Shown one piece after another: positions 2,290-24,842 of a stretch of 25,528 nucleotides of DNA. This DNA comes from a virus. Both the position numbers and the translations under genes were made by a program. How positions within the stretch are numbered: the first letter of the stretch is position 1; the number at the start of each line of letters is the position of its first letter. The stretch spans positions 1-25,528 of IMG/VR virus record IMGVR_UViG_3300036791_000248; one strand, written 5' to 3'. The notes beneath the pieces were generated by a model, which was not told the origin of the DNA, searched no databases, and saw nothing but the letters and a program-made list of their open reading frames with translations.

Positions 2290-4964
2290 CAGTAATCCAC
2301 ACTCTCTTTCATTTGCCTGGTGTTAGGACGAGCAAAGTCATCATCGTATGAGCTGCTGGTTTTCTTTTGTGCATCCTCCCGCACATGTACCTTGATGTCA
2401 GCCGTGGGTCTGGCATCGACCATCTTATGTTCGGCAACGGCCTTTTTAATCCGGTCGTCCAATGCGGCCTGACGATCCTCTGGTGTAGCAGGACCCGCAA
2501 TCATCGGCGGGATCGCCGCGAGATTTTCAATCCTATTTCGCGCGTAACGTCCTCGATGACCGCCAAGATCAAAATGCATCAAGTCTGGAGCAAGATCACC
2601 TTTCTGCGCCGCTGCTGGAAAAGCGCCGCCCCAAGTAAACCGCTCTTCCAACTCTGGATGACGCGCGTGCTGCTGACCTTTGGAGATCCGTGCCAGTTCA
2701 TGATACAGGCCGGTCGGATCAGATCCCTCGGCTGAGATGAGGGTGCCATCCTTATCAAGAATTCGCACATCCAAGGCTTGGTGTAGGCCATGAAATCCTG
2801 CACCCTTCCTATAACCTGAGGACGCTTCGACATGATAGCCCGGATGGGCGGCCTCGAACTGGTTCGCCGCTGCACCAACGATCTCTCTAAGAGCCGGATC
2901 GAGAGACCTCCAACCGATGCCTTCCGGCGTGCGGCCCTCCCGCATACGCATGACATCAGGCGCTGGAGCGAGACCCGGCGCCATCGATGACAATGTAGGC
3001 GTCCCCGCTGTAGGCGTTGTAGTTGGAGCTGGAGCGGTCGGCCCCGTCGGAATGCCAGGAGTGCCGAGGGCCGGACTATCGAATCCACCACGCCCCGGAA
3101 ATTTTGCCATAGACGCGTCGAGCGCTCTACTCCAGCCAGCCAAAAATGTTTGCCAAGTCTGCGGGCCTTTCATCCCAGGATAAGGATTGCCCTTGATGTT
3201 CGTCATCGTGTGGTGAGGGCCAAAGAACCCACGACCTTGTTGATGCATCAAATAAAGTTCGCCTGGAGTTGGATCGTGCTTGAAGGTTTCTTTGAACCAC
3301 TTCGCGTTAGCAGCCATATATTCCGCAGCGGCCCTAGCATTGTCCCGCGCGTTATAGATGTCGCCGCCGTGGCCGTAGGTGCGCCATTCCTCACCTCGCC
3401 CGAGTTGGAACAGACCCTTGTACTGGGTTCGCTTGTTCCGATTAGATCCAGGGTCGAGGTCGCTTTCAATTTTCGCGATACCCTTCATCATTTGCGGATC
3501 GAGACCATAGGCTTTTGCAGCGCTCTCAATCGCGCCCATCACGCCTTCACTGGCGCCGGTATATCCCTCCGTGGTAAAGACCGGGCGACCGCCGCCCGGC
3601 GCGCTCACGCCGCTATCTGTTGCCACGCCCTTGTTGGTCAAACCCGTGCCGGGACGATAGGCCGCCTGGATTATGCGGGCACTGCTGGCACCAGCACTCA
3701 CACCAGCGCCCATCCCGCCCGCCATCAAGCCGGTCGTCATCGAGGCGAGCAGCAAGCGCGCCTGATTGTCTGATCCGCCGCCGCCTTGAGTGGAACCTTG
3801 ATCGCGCTGCGCCTGCGTCGGCCCCTGACCGCCAATGCCGCCGCCGCCGAACGATGTCGGGCTTAATCCGGCTCGGCTGCTTGGGCGCGCGCCCTTGATC
3901 GCGTCCTCAATTGCCTTCTCTAGCGTCTTTTTGACGGTTTCACTGATCTTGCCGCCTTCGATTTTCCGCGACCATTCCGGATCTTGATAAACTGGTGATT
4001 TTGTGAAATCAAAAAACTTGTAGACGTTTTCGCGCATCCATTTGCCAATGCTCTTGCCGGGTACATCTTTTAACCAATAGTCCGGGTCGCTCGGTGTTAG
4101 ATCCTCTGTTGGTGGTTTGATCTTAGGTGTCTCGCCGGTCGAAAATAACTTGTTCAATTCCTTGAGACCTTCGACGATCTTCGGCCCGAACGCCACCATC
4201 ACGTTATCCTTGAATTTTTGCCAATTCAAAAACAACGCATTCTGCGTCTCGATGTATTTGGTGAGGTCCTTATCATCGATCGGCATTTTGCTCTTGTCAG
4301 CCAACGCTTTCCGAATCGTCTCAAGCAGCTTTACCGGATCATCCAATCCAAGGACGTGAGATATATAACTTGCTGATCCCCTTGTTTCTGGATCGCTCAG
4401 TAATTGGTCCATCTTGTCGGCAAACAGCTTCATTGCCTGTTCGGACCCCTCAGCTGTGTGTGGCAATTCTTGGATTTGACGAATTAACGGCTGCAATCCC
4501 TTGAACTGTCCCAACTCGGTTTGCAAACCATGCTGCAATCTAAAGATTATATCGCCCATCGTTTTTGCGACTTGCAACGGCTGCTGCAGACCAGTTGTCT
4601 CGGCCGCCCGTTTCAGATGGAAAATCGTGTCGGCTGAAAACACCGACGCTTTCGATAAATCCTGAATATCTTTTTGGCTGCGCGTCCATTCGCCGAATGC
4701 CCTAGCAAGTCCATAAACGGCGCCGGTAGCCGTTCCGGCCGACAATCCGAACGCCGTCAGCGCTGGTGCGATGCCTTCCTTGATGTTGCGTTCGAGCGTT
4801 TGCCCGACCTTACTCATCTCCTGAAAATGCCTGGTGACGCGACCGGCCGCGCTCTGCTCGCCGCCCTTGCCGATCTGATCTAAAACTTTGTTGATCTCTT
4901 TCAGCGGCCCGCTCATCTGATCGGTGAGCGACGCGACGAGTTTTAGTTGGTCCTCTTCTGCCAT
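2289..4964 (-). CDS. Second tape-measure-like protein with lytic transglycosylase and M15-like peptidase domains
   Basis: This 891-residue protein has a helical tape-measure N-terminus (about 1-350), a Gly/Gln-rich spacer (370-400), and the motif ARLLLASMTTGLMAGG at 402-417. A soluble lytic transglycosylase-like domain covers about 475-600, with likely catalytic Glu500 in KIESDLDP and the KGLFQL strand after it. After a Pro/Thr linker (630-665), a D,D/L,D-peptidase-like domain covers about 685-810: SSGYRK, H725-GLHQAL-D732 and MHFDL with H797 fit the HxxxxxxD...H zinc pattern of the M15/VanY group, with His where Gly is usual at 728. It is paralogous to the next gene upstream, which starts the same way and carries a different hydrolase. 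The two genes are one base apart. The likely role is setting tail length and opening the cell wall on injection. Domain calls are by motif only. Confidence 0.85.
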   Translation of the reverse strand: MAEEDQLKLVASLTDQMSGPLKEINKVLDQIGKGGEQSAAGRVTRHFQEMSKVGQTLERNIKEGIAPALTAFGLSAGTATGAVYGLARAFGEWTRSQKDIQDLSKASVFSADTIFHLKRAAETTGLQQPLQVAKTMGDIIFRLQHGLQTELGQFKGLQPLIRQIQELPHTAEGSEQAMKLFADKMDQLLSDPETRGSASYISHVLGLDDPVKLLETIRKALADKSKMPIDDKDLTKYIETQNALFLNWQKFKDNVMVAFGPKIVEGLKELNKLFSTGETPKIKPPTEDLTPSDPDYWLKDVPGKSIGKWMRENVYKFFDFTKSPVYQDPEWSRKIEGGKISETVKKTLEKAIEDAIKGARPSSRAGLSPTSFGGGGIGGQGPTQAQRDQGSTQGGGGSDNQARLLLASMTTGLMAGGMGAGVSAGASSARIIQAAYRPGTGLTNKGVATDSGVSAPGGGRPVFTTEGYTGASEGVMGAIESAAKAYGLDPQMMKGIAKIESDLDPGSNRNKRTQYKGLFQLGRGEEWRTYGHGGDIYNARDNARAAAEYMAANAKWFKETFKHDPTPGELYLMHQQGRGFFGPHHTMTNIKGNPYPGMKGPQTWQTFLAGWSRALDASMAKFPGRGGFDSPALGTPGIPTGPTAPAPTTTPTAGTPTLSSMAPGLAPAPDVMRMREGRTPEGIGWRSLDPALREIVGAAANQFEAAHPGYHVEASSGYRKGAGFHGLHQALDVRILDKDGTLISAEGSDPTGLYHELARISKGQQHARHPELEERFTWGGAFPAAAQKGDLAPDLMHFDLGGHRGRYARNRIENLAAIPPMIAGPATPEDRQAALDDRIKKAVAEHKMVDARPTADIKVHVREDAQKKTSSSYDDDFARPNTRQMKESVDY

Positions 4965-7754: not shown

Positions 7755-9353
7755 TCAGGGCGTGATCGGACCAATGATGTTGATGTCGACGCCACGATCA
7801 TATTGCAGGCGAAATTGAGCAAGCACCGCAAAAATTCGTAATTGATTCACGAGGTCCGGCGGATAGACGACATCTAGCCGATTCGGATTATTTGGATTTC
7901 GCTGCACGATCAAATTTTGGATATACGCGGTCGAGTTCTCAACAAGTCCATTGTACTCATCTTCCGCGTACTCAGCGATAAGTTCGGCCTTCGCCATCGA
8001 GGGCGTCAAAATTGCCTGGCCCGGACCAAACTTTGTGCCGTCATCAGCAAGTTTGTGCCTCGGATACTTGCTGGTGATTGCTTGACGTTGATTGGTGAAC
8101 AACCGAGCCAGCGTCGCCAGCGTGGTGACCAACTCGTAAGCGTCGTCGCTCTGGCCGTATTGGTTGAGTTGGTACTGCGTGCTTTCACGCATGATCATCG
8201 GAATGCCGTTGGGATCGACCGTCTGCACGGCTTGTCCCCACAAATTGATCGAGTTCTGTTCCGACTTGATGAATCTCTGGTGGAACGGCGCCGGTTTAAT
8301 CGAGGTCAACTCCAGCGTCTGCAACGGCCGTGCCGGATCGTTCAGCAGCGCGCGTGCAGCTTTTGAACAGTACGCCGCCGCCCATTGCCAACCTGACGAC
8401 GGCGAATTGGTCTCGAAGCACATCGTCGAAATTGTGAACCTGTTATTCCCTTCGCCCCAGGTGATTGCACCTGAGAAAATATCTCGCCGAGCCGAAAAAA
8501 TGACTCCGTAAAGTTGGCGCATCCAGCCCCAGCGTCCGTTGTCACCGCTGTTGTATTCGGTATCCCAGGCGTTCATGTTGGCTGTGTCGGTGAACGGCAT
8601 GGCGACATACTGATAATCCTCTTCGCCCATGTTGATGATGCAGGCGCTGCAATCAGCAACACCAGTTCCACCACCAAGCTTGCCGCCAGCGCTGCCGGGC
8701 CAGACCGCACTATTCGGATGCGAATAAGTCAGCGTGACACCATCAGGCAACACCTCGGCGCCAGGAGATCCGAGATAGTTGTCGCGTATGTCGATGTCGT
8801 TGCCGGTGACATCCGGCCAGTTACAAGTCAATGTGACTATGGCCGCCGCCGCCGTCGCCTTGACGGGTAATCCGAGCTGCCCAAGCGTAGGCGCCGTGTT
8901 GATCTGCGCCGCGAGATTGGCCGCGATCGTGGTCGCGGTGTCAGTCGCCCCGACGAGGATCGAGATCTTCGTACCGGCGATGTAGATCACCAACGTGCCA
9001 GCATCGGTCGGTGGCGTTGCGATCGTGATCGTTCCGCTAGCAGCGACGGCACTCGCTGGATGTGTGATAGCCACACCATAGACGAGCTGCCCGTAACTAT
9101 TCGCAAAGAATGCAGCAAACATCGCTTCCAGCATCGAGCCAGAACCGAATAGAGCCGTAGCCTGCGCCAATTCGCCGATCGGAATCGGCACATCAAGCTG
9201 GTTATTGGTCACGACTTGCGCGGTCGCCAGCGCATAGCCGACCAACAGCGCTTTTGGTCGCTGCACAGGCAACCCGGCCTTACTCGGATCTACCTCAAGC
9301 CACCAGAGTGGCAGGCGCCAATTATCAGGAAATTGTGCGAAGTCCACAGGCAT
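7755..9353 (-). CDS. Contractile tail sheath protein (Mu gpL-like)
   Basis: The 532-residue protein is a Mu-type sheath in length and layout. The N-terminus has DFAQFPDNWRLPLWWLEVD followed by a Pro-rich beta segment (RPKALLVGYA). An inserted Thr/Ala-rich beta domain spans about 105-200. The conserved C-terminal sheath core includes RWGWMRQLYGVIFSA, LARLFTNQRQAITSKYPRHK and the final FRLQYDRGVDINIIGPI strand, which in contractile sheaths takes part in subunit handshaking. Sheath subunits surround the tube and contract on infection, so this gene makes the phage a myovirus. The start is supported by ATAGGAGAGCAAC just before ATG. It is followed closely by the tube gene. Confidence 0.92.
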   Translation of the reverse strand: MPVDFAQFPDNWRLPLWWLEVDPSKAGLPVQRPKALLVGYALATAQVVTNNQLDVPIPIGELAQATALFGSGSMLEAMFAAFFANSYGQLVYGVAITHPASAVAASGTITIATPPTDAGTLVIYIAGTKISILVGATDTATTIAANLAAQINTAPTLGQLGLPVKATAAAAIVTLTCNWPDVTGNDIDIRDNYLGSPGAEVLPDGVTLTYSHPNSAVWPGSAGGKLGGGTGVADCSACIINMGEEDYQYVAMPFTDTANMNAWDTEYNSGDNGRWGWMRQLYGVIFSARRDIFSGAITWGEGNNRFTISTMCFETNSPSSGWQWAAAYCSKAARALLNDPARPLQTLELTSIKPAPFHQRFIKSEQNSINLWGQAVQTVDPNGIPMIMRESTQYQLNQYGQSDDAYELVTTLATLARLFTNQRQAITSKYPRHKLADDGTKFGPGQAILTPSMAKAELIAEYAEDEYNGLVENSTAYIQNLIVQRNPNNPNRLDVVYPPDLVNQLRIFAVLAQFRLQYDRGVDINIIGPITP

Positions 9354-19403: not shown

Positions 19404-19432
19404 TTGACCACTCGGGCACTATGCCCTATATT
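19404..19432 (+). promoter_or_regulatory. Promoter P1 with operator dyad in the spacer
   Basis: TTGACC (19404-19409), a 17-nt spacer and TATATT (19427-19432) form a near-consensus sigma70 promoter. The spacer ends in the dyad GGGCA-CTA-TGCCC (19414-19426), touching the -10. A repressor there would block RNA polymerase. A start near 19439 gives a leader of about 400 nt before the first gene. The same design recurs at 22408-22436. Confidence 0.72.
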
Positions 19433-19593
19433 CACATCATCAGAACGGAACTGGGAATAGGGACGCCAGGTCGGCATGCCCAACACAAGACCCCCGACAA
19501 GGCAACGGCGATCGGCTTCCACCACCGACCGCGCGGGCAGGCGCTACGGCAACCTGCCCCAGCAACGTAAGCCATCGGACACAAAGTTACGAT

Positions 19594-19821
19594 CTCTGGA
19601 GTTTTGGAGATCAGCAAAAACACCCGTTTTAGCAAGGTGCCCGGTGCAAGTCCGGCGCGGGTTTGATGAGCGTCCTATAGCAAGAGGGCGGCAGAGTTTT
19701 TGCTGGTCCCCCAAACTCCAGAGCGTCTCTATATGGTCACGTATCGCAAGGTCACCGCACTGGTTACGATCGGCGCGGGCGCGCAACGCAACCCCAGGGT
19801 CCCCGTGATCATTTAGAGACG
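19594..19821 (+). ncRNA. Structured leader RNA with two abutting long helices
   Basis: Helix I pairs 19594-19621 with 19696-19723: 25 of 28 positions are Watson-Crick and one more is G-U. Its 74-nt loop contains ACCCG (19622-19626) facing CGGGT (19658-19662), and within that a small hairpin CCGG-TGCAAGT-CCGG (19641-19655). Helix II starts at the very next base and pairs 19724-19741 with 19804-19821: 16 of 18 Watson-Crick plus one G-U. Both lie downstream of P1 and end 25 nt before the first start codon. It could be a regulatory leader, a separate small RNA, or a DNA element for packaging or replication. It does not match any riboswitch or tRNA well enough to name. Confidence 0.55.
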
Positions 19822-19846
19822 TTCAACACAAACCGGAGTCTACAAA

Positions 19847-20137
19847 ATGCTTACCATCCAGCAAGAAGTCGCCGACAGTATGTCGCAAGTCGTCGCCAAA
19901 GTGTTCGGCAACGACGTGACGCGCGCCCAACTGACGTTTTTTTTCAATTTGGTTGCCGATAAGGCGAATTGGAAAAATCCGATCGACGCGGTCGTGTCCA
20001 TCGATTGCGATTTTGACATGGCGATGATCCGCGAGGCGGTGATTTTCTTTACCGGCTCGGTGCCGAATTTCACGGCCAAGGGTCGCAGCAAGTACCGCGT
20101 GACCGCGCAAGGCTATTACGTGGTCTGCGGCGCCTGA
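19847..20137 (+). CDS. Unknown small protein, first gene of P1 operon
   Basis: A 96-residue protein, not recognised. It begins with a helical stretch (QQEVADSMSQVVAKVFGNDV), continues through RAQLTFFFNLVADKANWKNP and IDCDFDMAMIREAVIFFTGS, and ends in YRVTAQGYYVVCGA. No signal peptide, membrane segment or known catalytic motif is visible. The alternation of amphipathic helices and a final strand suggests a folded cytoplasmic domain. The start is fixed by GGAGTCTAC eight bases upstream. The stop TGA is the first three bases of the first intergenic hairpin element. Confidence 0.75.
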   Translation: MLTIQQEVADSMSQVVAKVFGNDVTRAQLTFFFNLVADKANWKNPIDAVVSIDCDFDMAMIREAVIFFTGSVPNFTAKGRSKYRVTAQGYYVVCGA

Positions 20138-20175
20138 TCACTAAGGTCGCCCCACGGGGCGACTCATAGTGCTCA
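20135..20175 (+). repeat. Intergenic hairpin element, copy A (CACTA/TAGTG arms)
   Basis: The element starts with the stop codon of the previous gene (TGATCACTAAG). Outer arms are CACTA (20139-20143) and TAGTG (20167-20171). The inner stem is GTCGCCCC (20146-20153) with GGGGCGAC (20156-20163), perfectly paired. The order is CACTA, AG, 8-bp stem, TCA, TAGTG. There is no T-tract. Confidence 0.8.
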
Positions 20176-20193
20176 CCAACAACGGAGTCTAAC

Positions 20194-20361
20194 GTGAATA
20201 CCAAAGGCACATTCCGCACGCGCCAGACTGGCTATCAATTCGTGCTGGAACAGTTACGCAACGGAACGTGGGTTATCATCGAGTCGCTCTATTCATGGGA
20301 GCAAGTGGAGCAAGCGCATCTCGAATATACGGCTGATGGCCACACCATCGCTCATCACTGA
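20194..20361 (+). CDS. Unknown 55-residue protein with GTG start
   Basis: A small gene starting with GTG at 20194, six bases after the GGAG of GGAGTCTAA, and ending with the TGA that opens the second intergenic hairpin element. The product begins MNTKGTFRTRQTGYQFVLEQ and contains NGTWVIIESLYSWEQVEQAH. A strand-turn-strand-helix pattern is plausible. No family is recognised. Evidence that it is real is the same ribosome motif and stop-codon element as its neighbours, with a full frame between them. Confidence 0.7.
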   Translation: MNTKGTFRTRQTGYQFVLEQLRNGTWVIIESLYSWEQVEQAHLEYTADGHTIAHH

Positions 20362-20399
20362 TCACTAAGCGCCGCCCACGGGCGGCGTCATAGTGCTCA
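20359..20399 (+). repeat. Intergenic hairpin element, copy B
   Basis: Same layout as copy A: TGATCACTAAG including the stop codon, CACTA (20363-20367), inner stem CGCCGCCC (20370-20377) with GGGCGGCG (20380-20387), then TCA and TAGTG (20391-20395). The inner stem differs from copy A yet is fully paired. Confidence 0.8.
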
Positions 20400-20402
20400 C
20401 CC

Positions 20403-20417
20403 GGCCCTTGCAAGGCC
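20403..20417 (+). repeat. CTTGCA-loop hairpin, copy 1
   Basis: GGCC, 7-nt loop CTTGCAA, GGCC. It lies between hairpin element B and the GGAGTCTAC motif of the 78-residue gene. Confidence 0.6.
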
Positions 20418-20438
20418 ATCAACTAACGGAGTCTACAA

Positions 20439-20675
20439 ATGTTCGTTCACAACCCGAACGCTTTCCCGAAGCATCACAAGCCGAAAAACGTCAAACTGAC
20501 GGGCAAGGCTTACAGCAACCCGCGCGGCAACGTCGCACAAACCTTCAAAGGCGAGCACGTCAACAAGATAGACGGAGCTTGGGTGCTTGCGAAGCCGCAC
20601 CACGAGACCGCCGAGCAAGCCGCAAGCCGCGCCCTCGCGCGGATGCTGGCCCAGCCGCTCAAGCTGGCTGCTTGA
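20439..20675 (+). CDS. Unknown basic 78-residue protein
   Basis: The protein starts MFVHNPNAFPKHHKPKNVKL and is Lys/His/Asn-rich in its first half, then a predicted helix (ETAEQAASRALARMLAQPLK) closes it. The basic N-terminus suggests nucleic-acid binding, but nothing specific is recognised. The start is set by GGAGTCTAC seven to eight bases before ATG. The stop TGA begins intergenic element C. It is the third gene of the P1 operon, whose genes share these flanking elements. Confidence 0.72.
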   Translation: MFVHNPNAFPKHHKPKNVKLTGKAYSNPRGNVAQTFKGEHVNKIDGAWVLAKPHHETAEQAASRALARMLAQPLKLAA

Positions 20676-20717
20676 TCACTAAGGCCGACCCCGACGCGGG
20701 TCGGCTCATAGTGTTCA
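20673..20717 (+). repeat. Intergenic hairpin element, copy C
   Basis: Same layout: TGATCACTAAG with the stop codon, CACTA (20677-20681), inner stem GCCGACCC (20684-20691) with GGGTCGGC (20698-20705), TCA, TAGTG (20709-20713). The inner loop is 6 nt here against 2 nt in A and B. Stem sequence differs from both other copies and is perfectly paired. Confidence 0.8.
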
Positions 20718-20721
20718 TTCC

Positions 20722-20738
20722 CGACCACTTGCAGGTCG
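20722..20738 (+). repeat. CTTGCA-loop hairpin, copy 2
   Basis: CGACC, 7-nt loop ACTTGCA, GGTCG. It lies between element C and the ribosome motif of the 212-residue gene. Confidence 0.6.
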
Positions 20739-20758
20739 ATCTAACCAAGGAGTCTACA

Positions 20759-21397
20759 ATGTCACACTATCGTACATCTGAGGCGCACGTTGCCCGGCTG
20801 CTGAACCCGGACGACCCGCGCAAATTCTACATCGGCAAAGGCTCGACCAAGATCTCGGATAAGAATTCCGACGCGGTCGCCTACCTCGAAGATCGGCCCA
20901 ACGTGCAAACCGGCAAGATGCGTTATTTTGTCGTCGCGTTCGTTGGCAAGCAGACCAAGCCGATCGCTAACTTCTACTACACCAAGCCGGAAACCCGCGC
21001 CGCGAAGATCAAGGAAATCTTCGATGGCCGGCAAGCCAGCATGAAGTACAAGGCCGAACAGCGCGAAGCGAACAAGCAGACGCCCGACTACGCCGTCGGC
21101 GATGTGTTCGGGACCTGCTGGGGTTACGACCAGACCAACGTCGAGTTTTACGAGATCGTCGCGATCAAAGGTAAGACCGCGACGTTGCGCGAGTTGGCGC
21201 AGGATCGAAAAGAAACCCACTGGGCGCAAGGCCACACCGTGCCGCTGCCCGGTAAGTACATCGGTGAGGCGTTCGAAAAGCGCATCACGCCGTATGGTTT
21301 CAAAATCTCTTCATGCCAGCGCGCCACGCCTGAGTCGTTCGACACGGTCGCTGGCGTGAAGGTCTACAAGCCCCGGCATTGGTCGGCCTACGCATAA
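20759..21397 (+). CDS. Unknown 212-residue cytoplasmic protein
   Basis: The largest gene of the P1 operon. The start at 20759 (MSHYRTSEAH) is set by GGAGTCTAC; the frame is open far upstream, but that would run through element C and the previous gene. The N-terminal third has LNPDDPRKFYIGKGSTKISD and MRYFVVAFVGKQTKPIANFY, a beta-rich domain. A Lys/Glu-rich helix follows (AAKIKEIFDGRQASMKYKAE), then a second beta-rich domain (VGDVFGTCWGYDQTNVEFYE, later LPGKYIGEAFEKRI) that resembles small SH3-like or DUF folds. No catalytic motif or family was recognised. No membrane or signal segment is present. Confidence 0.78.
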   Translation: MSHYRTSEAHVARLLNPDDPRKFYIGKGSTKISDKNSDAVAYLEDRPNVQTGKMRYFVVAFVGKQTKPIANFYYTKPETRAAKIKEIFDGRQASMKYKAEQREANKQTPDYAVGDVFGTCWGYDQTNVEFYEIVAIKGKTATLRELAQDRKETHWAQGHTVPLPGKYIGEAFEKRITPYGFKISSCQRATPESFDTVAGVKVYKPRHWSAYA

Positions 21398-21407
21398 CCA
21401 TCAACTA

Positions 21408-21431
21408 CGGCGGCGCCTACGGGCGCCGTCG
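21408..21431 (+). repeat. Intergenic hairpin of divergent type (TACG loop)
   Basis: A 10-bp stem with one G-U pair (CGGCGGCGCC with GGCGCCGTCG) and tetraloop TACG lies between the 212- and 134-residue genes. It lacks CACTA/TAGTG arms. GTTGCAAAC follows, then GGAGTCTAC. It occupies the slot of elements A-C but has a different build. Confidence 0.65.
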
Positions 21432-21450
21432 TTGCAAACAGGAGTCTACA

Positions 21451-21855
21451 ATGCGCTTTGTTATCTTACTCGCGGCATGCTTGTTCGCAGGCAACGCCTA
21501 CGCCGCCCCGCAGATGCCGAAAGACCTGCAGGGCAAGTGGTGCGTCGACGATATTTTCACCTCCAACACGGCCACAGTCGGAACCAAAAGCTGCATCGGC
21601 TTGAATGAAGGCGCGGCGTACATTGTTAGCCCGCGCGGCTACTTCCATGACGGCGATCACTGCGATGTTGTTAAGATCAGGAAGCACGCCGCGCCGCCGT
21701 GGGATGACTCGTTCCGCCATCCCTGGCTCGGGCCGATCTATCATCTCGCGTTCAAATGCCGGGAAGGTGATATGGAAGGGTTCAATCCTGGCATCATCAA
21801 ACAGAGATGGCAAACGGTCGGCGAACGACTCGAAATCAAAAGGAGTCTACAATGA
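21451..21855 (+). CDS. Unknown secreted protein (Sec signal), 134 residues
   Basis: ATG at 21451 follows GGAGTCTAC. The N-terminus MRFVILLAACLFAGNAYA is a standard Sec signal peptide with likely cleavage before APQMP, so the mature protein of about 116 residues is periplasmic or released. It holds four or more cysteines (KWCVDD, KSCIGL, DHCDVV, FKCREG), suggesting disulphides. The pattern 'LQGKWC...' resembles small rhizobial secreted proteins of unknown function. Its last codons are read from the next ribosome motif (AGG AGT CTA CAA TGA), and it overlaps the next gene as ATGA. Confidence 0.75.
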   Translation: MRFVILLAACLFAGNAYAAPQMPKDLQGKWCVDDIFTSNTATVGTKSCIGLNEGAAYIVSPRGYFHDGDHCDVVKIRKHAAPPWDDSFRHPWLGPIYHLAFKCREGDMEGFNPGIIKQRWQTVGERLEIKRSLQ

Positions 21856-22163
21856 AAGTGATCTTACTCGCGGCGATGCTGGTGGCGTTCACCAGCTCGG
21901 CGCACGCGTACACTACCTGCACATATGTCGGCCCGTCGCTCGTGTGCAGCGAGTTCGGCAGCAACCGAACGCCTACTGTGATTAACCGCTACGGCTCGAC
22001 CTACTCGATCTCTGGTGGCGAATCCCGCCAGCTGCGATCGCCGCCGCCAAAGCCGTTGCGGCTGCCGCCGCCGCCAACGCCGGATCTTAATTGGAACGGG
22101 CAACCCTGCCCGCCGAACACCCAGCTGGTTGAGCACCGCGGGGAGCAAATAGTCTGCCAATAA
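21852..22163 (+). CDS. Unknown secreted Pro-rich protein, 103 residues
   Basis: MKVILLAAMLVAFTSSAHA is a Sec signal, with likely cleavage before YTTC. The mature part has two cysteines early (TCTYVGPSLVC), a short strand segment (VINRYGSTYSISGG), a Pro/Lys stretch (SPPPKPLRLPPPPTP) and two late cysteines (QPCPPNTQLVEHRGEQIVC). It reads as a small disulphide-bonded module with a Pro hinge. It starts inside the stop of the preceding secreted gene and is the last gene before the terminator. The tandem of two exported proteins suggests a moron-like function at the host envelope. That is inference. Confidence 0.72.
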   Translation: MKVILLAAMLVAFTSSAHAYTTCTYVGPSLVCSEFGSNRTPTVINRYGSTYSISGGESRQLRSPPPKPLRLPPPPTPDLNWNGQPCPPNTQLVEHRGEQIVCQ

Positions 22164-22171
22164 AAGCGGGC

Positions 22172-22198
22172 CGGGTGACGCTTGCAACGTCGATCCCG
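22172..22198 (+). repeat. CTTGCA-loop hairpin, copy 3
   Basis: GACG (22177-22180), 7-nt loop CTTGCAA, CGTC (22188-22191), with an outer pair CGGG (22172-22175) / CCCG (22195-22198) across a small internal loop. It follows the stop of the 103-residue gene. Confidence 0.6.
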
Positions 22199-22208
22199 AC
22201 CCTATGCT

Positions 22209-22234
22209 CGACGCGAGGAGTCTACCACTCGCGT
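22209..22234 (+). repeat. Orphan GGAGTCTAC in a hairpin loop, no gene following
   Basis: ACGCGAG (22211-22217) pairs with CTCGCGT (22228-22234), and the motif GGAGTCTAC (22217-22225) lies in the loop. No start codon with a usable frame follows before the terminator. It is probably the remnant left after loss of a gene at the end of the P1 operon. Confidence 0.55.
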
Positions 22235-22260
22235 TGAGCCTCCCTGGAACTTACACTAAC

Positions 22261-22292
22261 CGCCCCGGCCTCACCAGCCGGGGCGTTTTTTT
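22261..22292 (+). terminator. Intrinsic terminator of the P1 operon
   Basis: A perfect 9-bp GC-rich stem (CGCCCCGGC with GCCGGGGCG, loop CTCACCA) is followed directly by seven T on the plus strand. It ends the first plus-strand operon. Confidence 0.92.
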
Positions 22293-22311
22293 GTGTCCAA
22301 AATCCGGCGCC

Positions 22312-22398
22312 CTACAGATACAGCAGGACTATCACGAGGCCGATCGCCGCCAGCGCCAGCACTGTCAGCGCGTAGATAAACCAGCGATCATCGAGCAT
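22312..22398 (-). CDS. Possible 28-residue single-span membrane miniprotein
   Basis: ATG at 22398 to TAG at 22312-22314 encodes 28 residues. MLDDRWFIY is followed by about 18 hydrophobic residues (LTVLALAAIGLVIVLLYL), a clean transmembrane helix with a charged N-terminus. No ribosome site is visible and it sits back to back with promoter P2, so it could be chance. Small phage membrane peptides of this kind do occur as inhibitors or lysis regulators. The function is unknown. Confidence 0.35.
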   Translation of the reverse strand: MLDDRWFIYALTVLALAAIGLVIVLLYL

Positions 22399-22407
22399 AT
22401 ATTTGGC

Positions 22408-22436
22408 TTGCGTTACCGGGCACATTGCCCTATGTA
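22408..22436 (+). promoter_or_regulatory. Promoter P2 with the same operator dyad as P1
   Basis: TTGCGT (22408-22413), 17-nt spacer, TATGTA (22431-22436). The spacer ends in GGGCA-CAT-TGCCC (22418-22430), with the same arms, spacing and place against the -10 as P1. The shared core reads CGGGCA-N3-TGCCCTAT. The predicted start near 22443 places the CTTGCA hairpin at the very 5' end of the transcript. Confidence 0.7.
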
Positions 22437-22444
22437 TTGAACCT

Positions 22445-22461
22445 GGCGGCCTTGCACCGCC
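22445..22461 (+). repeat. CTTGCA-loop hairpin, copy 4
   Basis: GGCGG, 7-nt loop CCTTGCA, CCGCC. It would be the first structure in the P2 transcript, 14 nt before GGAGTCTAC. Confidence 0.62.
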
Positions 22462-22486
22462 GACTAAGTCCAACGGAGTCTACGCC

Positions 22487-22768
22487 ATGCTCACCGACAA
22501 CAAACGCCTTGACGAAATCCGCGCCATCATACGCGCACGCACTGGCAAACCGAAAACCTGCCGCGCCGCCCTGATCATCTTACGCGGCTGTCCGACCGGC
22601 GCCACCGAGCGCGCCCTGGAGGTCAACGGCGTCACGCTCGCAGCCCTCGACGAACTCGTGCGCCTCGGCCTCGCGTGCTGCACGATCGACACACTCACCA
22701 ACGGGATGCAGATCCCGCGCTACACCATCACGCCCGTGGGGCGCGGCACACTGGAGGGCGGGCGATGA
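22487..22768 (+). CDS. Winged-helix-like small protein, first gene of P2 operon
   Basis: The 93-residue protein starts at 22487 after GGAGTCTAC. The pattern CRAALIILRGCPTGATERAL, then TLAALDELVRLGLACCTID and RYTITPVGR, fits a small winged helix: two helices, a recognition-type helix and a beta wing. Such proteins are often regulators, and this one is a candidate for the factor that binds the shared P1/P2 dyad. The call is by pattern only. It contains three cysteines of unclear role. It overlaps the next gene as ATGA. Confidence 0.6.
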   Translation: MLTDNKRLDEIRAIIRARTGKPKTCRAALIILRGCPTGATERALEVNGVTLAALDELVRLGLACCTIDTLTNGMQIPRYTITPVGRGTLEGGR

Positions 22769-24323: not shown

Positions 24324-24842
24324 TTACGCGGGCTTCGGCGTCGCTCCCGGCGGTGGCGTCACGATCGGATGCGTCGGTGCCGGCGGCGGTTCCTCAATCA
24401 AGAACCACACCCCGCCGTAGCCAATCACAAACACATGCACCAGCGCCTTGTTGCTGTCTGGCTGTTGCACCGGCGGCAAATAAATCGGATGCGTCGGTGA
24501 GTTGCCATTACCCGCCTCTGGCGGCTTTTCGCCCGGCGGCAGGTAGATCGGCGGCATCGCTACCGGCGGCCAACCGGGAATCGGCTGCGGACCCGGCGGT
24601 GTGATGTCGACCCACGGCGGCGCGACGCCGCCCCAAAATCCGGGCGGCCTTCCGCCAGGGGCGATCGGATGCGCGGGGTGTCCAGGGCTCGGCCAGATAC
24701 TCGGCGGCCAATAGATCGGATGCGTGGGAACACCCGGAGGACCGCCCGGTGCGATCGGATGCGCCGGCCAGCCAGGTACACCAAAGCCTGGATCAACCGG
24801 ACCGCCACCGATCGGAGTAATCATCGCCAAAAATGGCTGCAT
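24324..24842 (-). CDS. Pro-rich protein with repeated His-Pro-Ile motif
   Basis: The 172-residue protein starts after CAGGAGACGAAC at ATG 24842. It is about a quarter proline, with HPI at residues 28-30, 41-43, 58-60, 118-120 and 158-160 and a degenerate PPI at 97-99, usually as [TA]HPI followed by a hydrophobic residue and PP. A conserved-looking beta segment (ALVHVFVIGYGGVWFLIEE) precedes the last repeat. Similar proteins occur across Rhizobiales genomes without known function, by recollection. At DNA level each motif shares ATCGGATGCG on the plus strand (24364, 24484, 24664, 24715, 24754). It is the last gene of a minus-strand cluster. Confidence 0.7.
   Translation of the reverse strand: MQPFLAMITPIGGGPVDPGFGVPGWPAHPIAPGGPPGVPTHPIYWPPSIWPSPGHPAHPIAPGGRPPGFWGGVAPPWVDITPPGPQPIPGWPPVAMPPIYLPPGEKPPEAGNGNSPTHPIYLPPVQQPDSNKALVHVFVIGYGGVWFLIEEPPPAPTHPIVTPPPGATPKPA

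Follow-up and report, generated by a model that had tools for sequence, protein, structure and literature searches.

Hairpins at gene junctions of the window

The window, that is, the whole 25,528-nt stretch of viral DNA analysed here (IMG/VR record IMGVR_UViG_3300036791_000248), carries three copies of a hairpin, designated H1, at consecutive gene junctions of the plus strand. The copies were recognized by sequence, by RNA folding and by matches to a covariance model (CM) described below. The features of this region are listed here.

19404–19432, plus strand: promoter-like site TTGACC-17-TATATT (consensus match only; 1.2 expected by chance)
20135–20175, plus strand: copy 1, hairpin H1 (sequence, fold, CM match of 58.7 bits); P1, TGA 20135–20137 / TCA 20173–20175; P2, CACTA 20139–20143 / TAGTG 20167–20171; internal loop AG/TCA; P3, GTCGCCC 20146–20152 / GGGCGAC 20157–20163, loop CACG; TGA is the stop codon of ORF 19847–20137
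20359–20399, plus strand: copy 2, hairpin H1 (sequence, fold, CM match of 64.7 bits); P1, TGA 20359–20361 / TCA 20397–20399; P2, 20363–20367 / 20391–20395; P3, CGCCGCC 20370–20376 / GGCGGCG 20381–20387, loop CACG; TGA is the stop codon of ORF 20194–20361
20403–20417, plus strand: copy 2, hairpin H3, GGCC-CTTGCAA-GGCC, located 5′ of the Shine-Dalgarno sequence (SD) CGGAG and ATG 20439
20673–20717, plus strand: copy 3, hairpin H1 (sequence, fold, CM match of 61.2 bits); P1, TGA 20673–20675 / TCA 20715–20717; P2, 20677–20681 / 20709–20713; P3, GCCGACCC 20684–20691 / GGGTCGGC 20698–20705, loop CGACGC; TGA is the stop codon of ORF 20439–20675
20722–20738, plus strand: copy 3, hairpin H3, CGACC-ACTTGCA-GGTCG, located 5′ of SD AGGAG and the next start
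21407–21432, plus strand: fourth, degenerate junction hairpin of 10–11 bp with a TACG loop (fold z −4.45)
22261–22293, plus strand: canonical intrinsic terminator with 9 GC pairs and a run of seven T, 1.5 kb downstream

All three copies start with TGATCACTAAG, at 20135, 20359 and 20673, and their TCA-TAGTG 3′ ends lie at 20171, 20395 and 20713. The initial annotation had placed them at these positions and had included in each element the stop codon of the preceding gene; direct reading of the sequence agreed on both points, the TGA being an in-frame stop in every copy. RNA folding revealed that the outer helix runs past CACTA/TAGTG: across one mismatch, TGA pairs with the TCA located 3′ of TAGTG, so the stop codon is inside the stem. 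Each H1 beat 200 of 200 dinucleotide shuffles (z of −4.45, −3.80, and −4.14 for copies 1–3), and no chance match to the fixed-flank pattern, present in copies 1 and 3, is expected in the window. The inner stems had been described as 8 bp long with exact complements. Their complementarity is exact, and the length applies to copy 3 (6-nt loop); copies 1 and 2 form 7 bp closed by a CACG tetraloop.

Copy 1 is followed directly by SD GGAG near 20184 and by the GTG start codon at 20194, with no second hairpin. Copies 2 and 3 each precede another hairpin, H3, whose loop is CTTGCA(A). The fourth hairpin lies 10 nt after stop codon TAA 21395–21397, is devoid of CACTA/TAGTG and gave a weak partial CM match at 21409–21430 (11.2 bits). 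The promoter-like site is a possible start of the operon with the three copies, and the canonical terminator is likely its end. GGAGTC is the SD of nearly every plus-strand gene in 19847–22487, with or without a junction hairpin, and occurs also in most element-bearing relatives; GGAGTCTAC stands directly 5′ of most starts in the same region.

Distribution of the family

The window hairpins belong to a larger RNA-structure family that is absent from Rfam 15. When 2.9 million viral contigs were scanned with TGATCACTAAG-gap-TCATAGTG, 12 loci were obtained, ten of which had a GC hairpin with differing stems; matches L005 and L013, lacking a stem, were discarded as chance. Looser scans added further copies. 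We then trained a covariance model on 37 copies and ran it over whole records (its E-values are rough). Each of the 20 contigs tested yielded copies, which share a single strand in any one contig and mostly cluster in one region of a few kb. Where the model also matched the opposite strand, it had picked up these hairpins as weak mirror images. After curation, the set comprised 52 distinct copies, located at gene junctions of 20 IMG/VR contigs (the window and 19 others), which often have more than one. Independent lineages number fewer than 20, because certain contigs are closely related to each other (G003 with G007; G001 with G004).

No Rfam 15 model matched the window or five element-bearing loci at or above its gathering threshold; relaxing the E-value limit to 5 added nothing but a group II intron match, which lay elsewhere and was at chance level. 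A blastn search with positions 19500–22500 against 50,697 phage records yielded no match, and the consensus 68-mer gave only short GC-stem matches in phages. Twelve isolate or named phage records, chosen as related by terminase, VWA gene or short match, were searched whole with the covariance model; a single weak partial match (Bradyrhizobium phage, 16.7 bits) was taken as chance. The attribution to rhizobial phages made in the initial annotation was not confirmed, no copy being present in the rhizobial isolates 16-3, RHph_X2_25, ort11, and RHph_X3_15. Pattern scanning of 84,980 bacterial and archaeal species genomes (257 billion bases) produced one match, which was stemless, and the covariance model detected none in 299 Pseudomonadota genomes under stricter filters and without a positive control. 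Within the searches made, the module was seen in viruses alone, and none of the open-access papers listed in the literature searches was found to describe such a module.

The window phage encodes a tail sheath protein and a gpA-like terminase, and contigs G009 and G014 encode HK97-type terminases; hence, the module occurs with at least two terminase types. A DUF2201-VWA gene is present on ten contigs. In the contigs read, ATPase and DUF3150-like genes precede it, and copies occupy the junctions. An N4-like (Schitoviridae) origin, considered on account of the ATPase and DUF2201-VWA genes, was discarded because the terminases in the contigs examined were HK97-type or gpA-like and because the stretches read revealed no gene for a giant virion RNA polymerase. 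A second hairpin subtype, in which a symmetric CA/GA internal loop replaces AG/TCA, occurs at L002, L052, L057, L103, and L104, and both subtypes coexist in several phages. L053 carries on its minus strand two modules, at 4589 and at 8817 (strand coordinates), that match at every base from stop codon through SD, which indicates that entire modules are duplicated inside one genome even as others diverge.

Conservation of the RNA structure

In the 37 aligned copies, 97.5% of H1 cells were paired compared to 80.4% after shuffling, and two-sided changes were found at 11 of 16 pairs. The covariation score of 0.405 (0.099 for shuffled alignments) was reached by none of 500 shuffles, which strongly supports the earlier proposal that selection acts on the RNA fold. 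P1 alone also covaries: 50 of its 63 unique combinations were paired vs. 28.7 ± 3.9 shuffled (0/20000), and where the stop codon lies at −5 to −11, P1 pairing persists with another sequence. At the orthologous junction between the AAA ATPase gene and the DUF3150 gene, compared in eight contigs, the stems nearly all differ and all pair. These orthologous junctions reject the possibility, raised in the initial annotation, of recent duplications with unpaired stems, though some copies within a genome are indeed duplicates.

P1 and P3 covary, and P2 with its AG/TCA internal loop is near-fixed, a constancy partly built in by scan patterns that preset CACTAAG and TCATAGTG. The outer arms CACTA/TAGTG, reported as fixed, are so in the window copies but not across the family: the model search recovered the variants TACTA/TAGTG, CACTG/CAGTG, TACTT/AAGTG, and CGCTA/TAGTG, which keep the pairing. 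G.U outnumbered A.C pairs 12:2 in P3 and 6:0 in P2, where only standard pairs could pass the extraction step; in P1 the bias was reversed (2:8). UNCG tetraloops were found in 11 copies. Pair types and UNCG loops favour, without proving, folding of the sense-strand RNA.

The NEMIS/Correia and ERIC repeats are likewise repeated, intergenic and co-transcribed, form stem-loops and have a proposed role in mRNA processing or stability (PMC2229807). Those repeats are of the MITE type: their sequence is conserved, and they have terminal inverted repeats and target duplications (PMC2229807), whereas in the present family most stems differ, only the pairing is kept, and the carriers are phage contigs only. 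The occurrence of 33 distinct P3 arms in 52 copies argues against a MITE or a NEMIS-like conserved repeat. We regard as very improbable any element acting at the DNA level, such as an attC-like recombination site or a miniature mobile repeat marking gene cassettes. Integron attC sites resemble the copies in having conserved outer boxes around a variable inner stem just 3′ of stop codons, and several copies per genome, some of them identical, and carriage by phages with different terminase types would fit such an element. However, the outer boxes are CACTA/TAGTG with minor variants, not GTTRRRY/RYYYAAC, and the attC core GTTRRRY is absent. The copies have a single orientation relative to transcription, the pair types are those of sense RNA with G.U exceeding A.C, and gene order is kept across several junctions. 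The B:C helix described below, H3 and the SD spacing would also be left unexplained.

Position at gene junctions

The typical order at a junction is the upstream stop codon, H1, strand C where present, H3, SD and the next start. Of the 52 copies, 27 have the upstream stop codon exactly at position −4 relative to CACTA, and 45 have it no more than 16 nt upstream, compared to 6% of random positions. The next start usually lies 47–65 nt after strand B (TAGTGnnn) and 22–45 nt in the window. H3, scored as a hairpin mostly with a CUUGCA-type loop, was present in 48 of 52 copies with 36 distinct stems (11 expected from shuffles), and two of the three window copies retain it. The loop CUUGCAA has the form of a canonical 7-nt anticodon loop; an anticodon-loop mimic and a palindromic kissing loop were both considered for H3 and rejected because of the loop lengths and the variants CTTGCA, CTGCAA, TAGCAA, and CTTGCT.

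An alternative helix

In most copies outside the window, strand B is followed downstream by strand C (nnnCACT); the window copies have no strand C. Among unique B:C combinations, 50 of 69 were paired vs. 32.0 ± 3.6 shuffled (0/20000). Altogether, 95.5% of B:C cells were paired, the score was 0.277 vs. 0.103, and the helix covaries at the nnn positions. Because B is complementary to both A and C, the helices A:B and B:C are mutually exclusive. Their computed energies are alike, with a mean gain of −4.4 kcal/mol for A:B and −3.6 kcal/mol for B:C. In ensemble folding, B was mostly paired with or without A blocked (unpaired 0.15 to 0.26), as expected of a refolding strand. Strand C was also inspected as a possible anti-SD, which proved inconsistent across copies.

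The exclusion of A:B by B:C resembles attenuators, and H1 places a GC-rich hairpin right 3′ of the stop codon; even so, a transcription terminator or attenuator working without a U-tract, with B:C as antiterminator, is quite improbable. The longest T-run within 20 nt after P3 was 1–2 in 50 of 52 copies, and runs of at least four T were absent 3′ of 51 of 52, in agreement with the earlier statement that these are not standard terminators. An intrinsic-terminator search of the window called none of the three copies, and a canonical terminator stands elsewhere in the operon. Internal copies, several in series, would silence the genes behind them, and a third-helix partner for C was not seen in the copies inspected.

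Mutually exclusive helices beside a translated stop codon are also known from attenuator and translational-coupling leaders (PMC12548453). A ribosome ending at UGA could cover A and stop against P3, leaving B to pair with C, while A:B would form when no ribosome is present. Such ribosome-gated refolding would either report upstream translation to the downstream gene (coupling), or place just past the stop a strong hairpin that insulates neighbouring genes from ribosome scanning. It accounts for the stop-codon position better than processing of the mRNA does: with the stop exactly at −4 from P2, P3 begins 11 nt after the first base of the stop. The similar energies of the two helices fit as well, and a correlation of structure just past a stop with reduced coupling has been reported (PMC12548453), which we count in its favour. 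On the other hand, blocking A gave no consistent exposure of the SD (mean unpaired 0.37 vs. 0.40; 11 up and 5 down of 48), P1, with a different sequence, still pairs in copies whose stop is found at −5 to −11, and a stop-to-start distance of ~90–100 nt is long for coupling. In contrast to the known leaders, the module has no terminator helix or consistent SD effect in folding and is repeated at many junctions. We consider ribosome gating rather unlikely, although it is the strongest competitor of the processing model described next.

Proposed function

From the structure, position and orientation of the copies, we infer that an intercistronic processing and end-protection module is the best explanation, with a probability of roughly 40%. 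H1 would be the recognition fold for an endoribonuclease, either host RNase III or another nuclease, that reads the near-invariant P2 with its internal loop and cuts near UCA. The upstream mRNA would then end in the GC-rich P3 hairpin, which would protect its 3′ end, and strand B, freed on the downstream mRNA, would refold with C into a 5′-terminal hairpin protecting the 5′ end. The polycistronic phage mRNA would thus be divided into separately stabilized messages. The refolding half of this model is inapplicable to the window copies, as they have no strand C; they may represent a minimal form serving 3′-end definition only.

We favour this processing model since it assigns a function to every part: recognition for the near-fixed core, 3′ protection for P3 and, after the loss of A, 5′ protection for B:C. 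The missing T-runs at the copies and the canonical terminator further downstream of those in the window were also counted for it. Like T7-type intercistronic RNase III signals, which are irregular hairpins with an internal loop and no U-tract between genes of a polycistronic phage transcript, H1 lies between cistrons and is a long hairpin with most of its bases paired. Unlike these signals, it has a near-fixed P2 and internal loop and a stop codon in the stem, and is accompanied by the B:C helix and the CUUGCAA hairpin; cleavage is here a prediction. H1, with ~16–20 interrupted base pairs, would be a rather short substrate for RNase III. The stop-codon linkage exceeds what processing alone requires, and the function of the CUUGCAA loop is left unexplained by the processing model. 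Transcripts of intergenic NEMIS are proposed RNase III substrates (PMC2229807), and 5′ stem-loops stabilize mRNA according to papers cited in a review (PMC3997798).

The near-fixed core could also be bound by a protein of the phage or the host (a repressor, an antiterminator or another RNA-binding protein) that reads P2 and the AG/UCA loop and perhaps the CUUGCAA loop. A fixed sequence between two covarying helices, together with a fixed loop on a variable stem, is the footprint expected of such recognition. However, the near-invariance of P2 can also be explained by the need of B to pair with both A and C, the B:C helix itself would have no explanation, and no candidate protein was found, though without a systematic search; a protein site is thus unlikely.

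Returning to processing, we propose only tentatively, and with some doubt, that the family is a type of phage RNA not described before, a bistable module of three strands (A:B or B:C) at successive junctions that would split a polycistronic transcript into separately stabilized messages, cleavage shifting B from pairing within the upstream message to a 5′ hairpin on the downstream one. The family itself is a well-supported structured RNA without a curated model, located at successive junctions in phages with different terminase types. Its freely covarying stems and near-fixed core allow clean tests of how phage operon mRNA is partitioned, and it may lead to a new RNA-binding protein or nuclease specificity.

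Other features of the window

The noncoding region 19411–19850, located 5′ of the first plus-strand gene, shares 89–93% DNA identity in two blocks with contig G008 (L011 4912–5453). Between them, positions 19585–19713 diverge in sequence and length and hold a 28-nt inverted repeat (19594–19621 / 19696–19723). Rfam gave no match to the noncoding region, and a 24-mer scan found no other viral contig with it. Positions 19560–19846 fold with a z of −4.0. The region is possibly a large structured leader RNA, or else an origin or packaging region. On the minus strand, the protein at 24324–24842 is encoded by repetitive DNA (repeat families D8 and D19), and a 58-residue stretch of it is 67% identical to a protein segment of G014 (L083 17190–17363), a phage with a different terminase.
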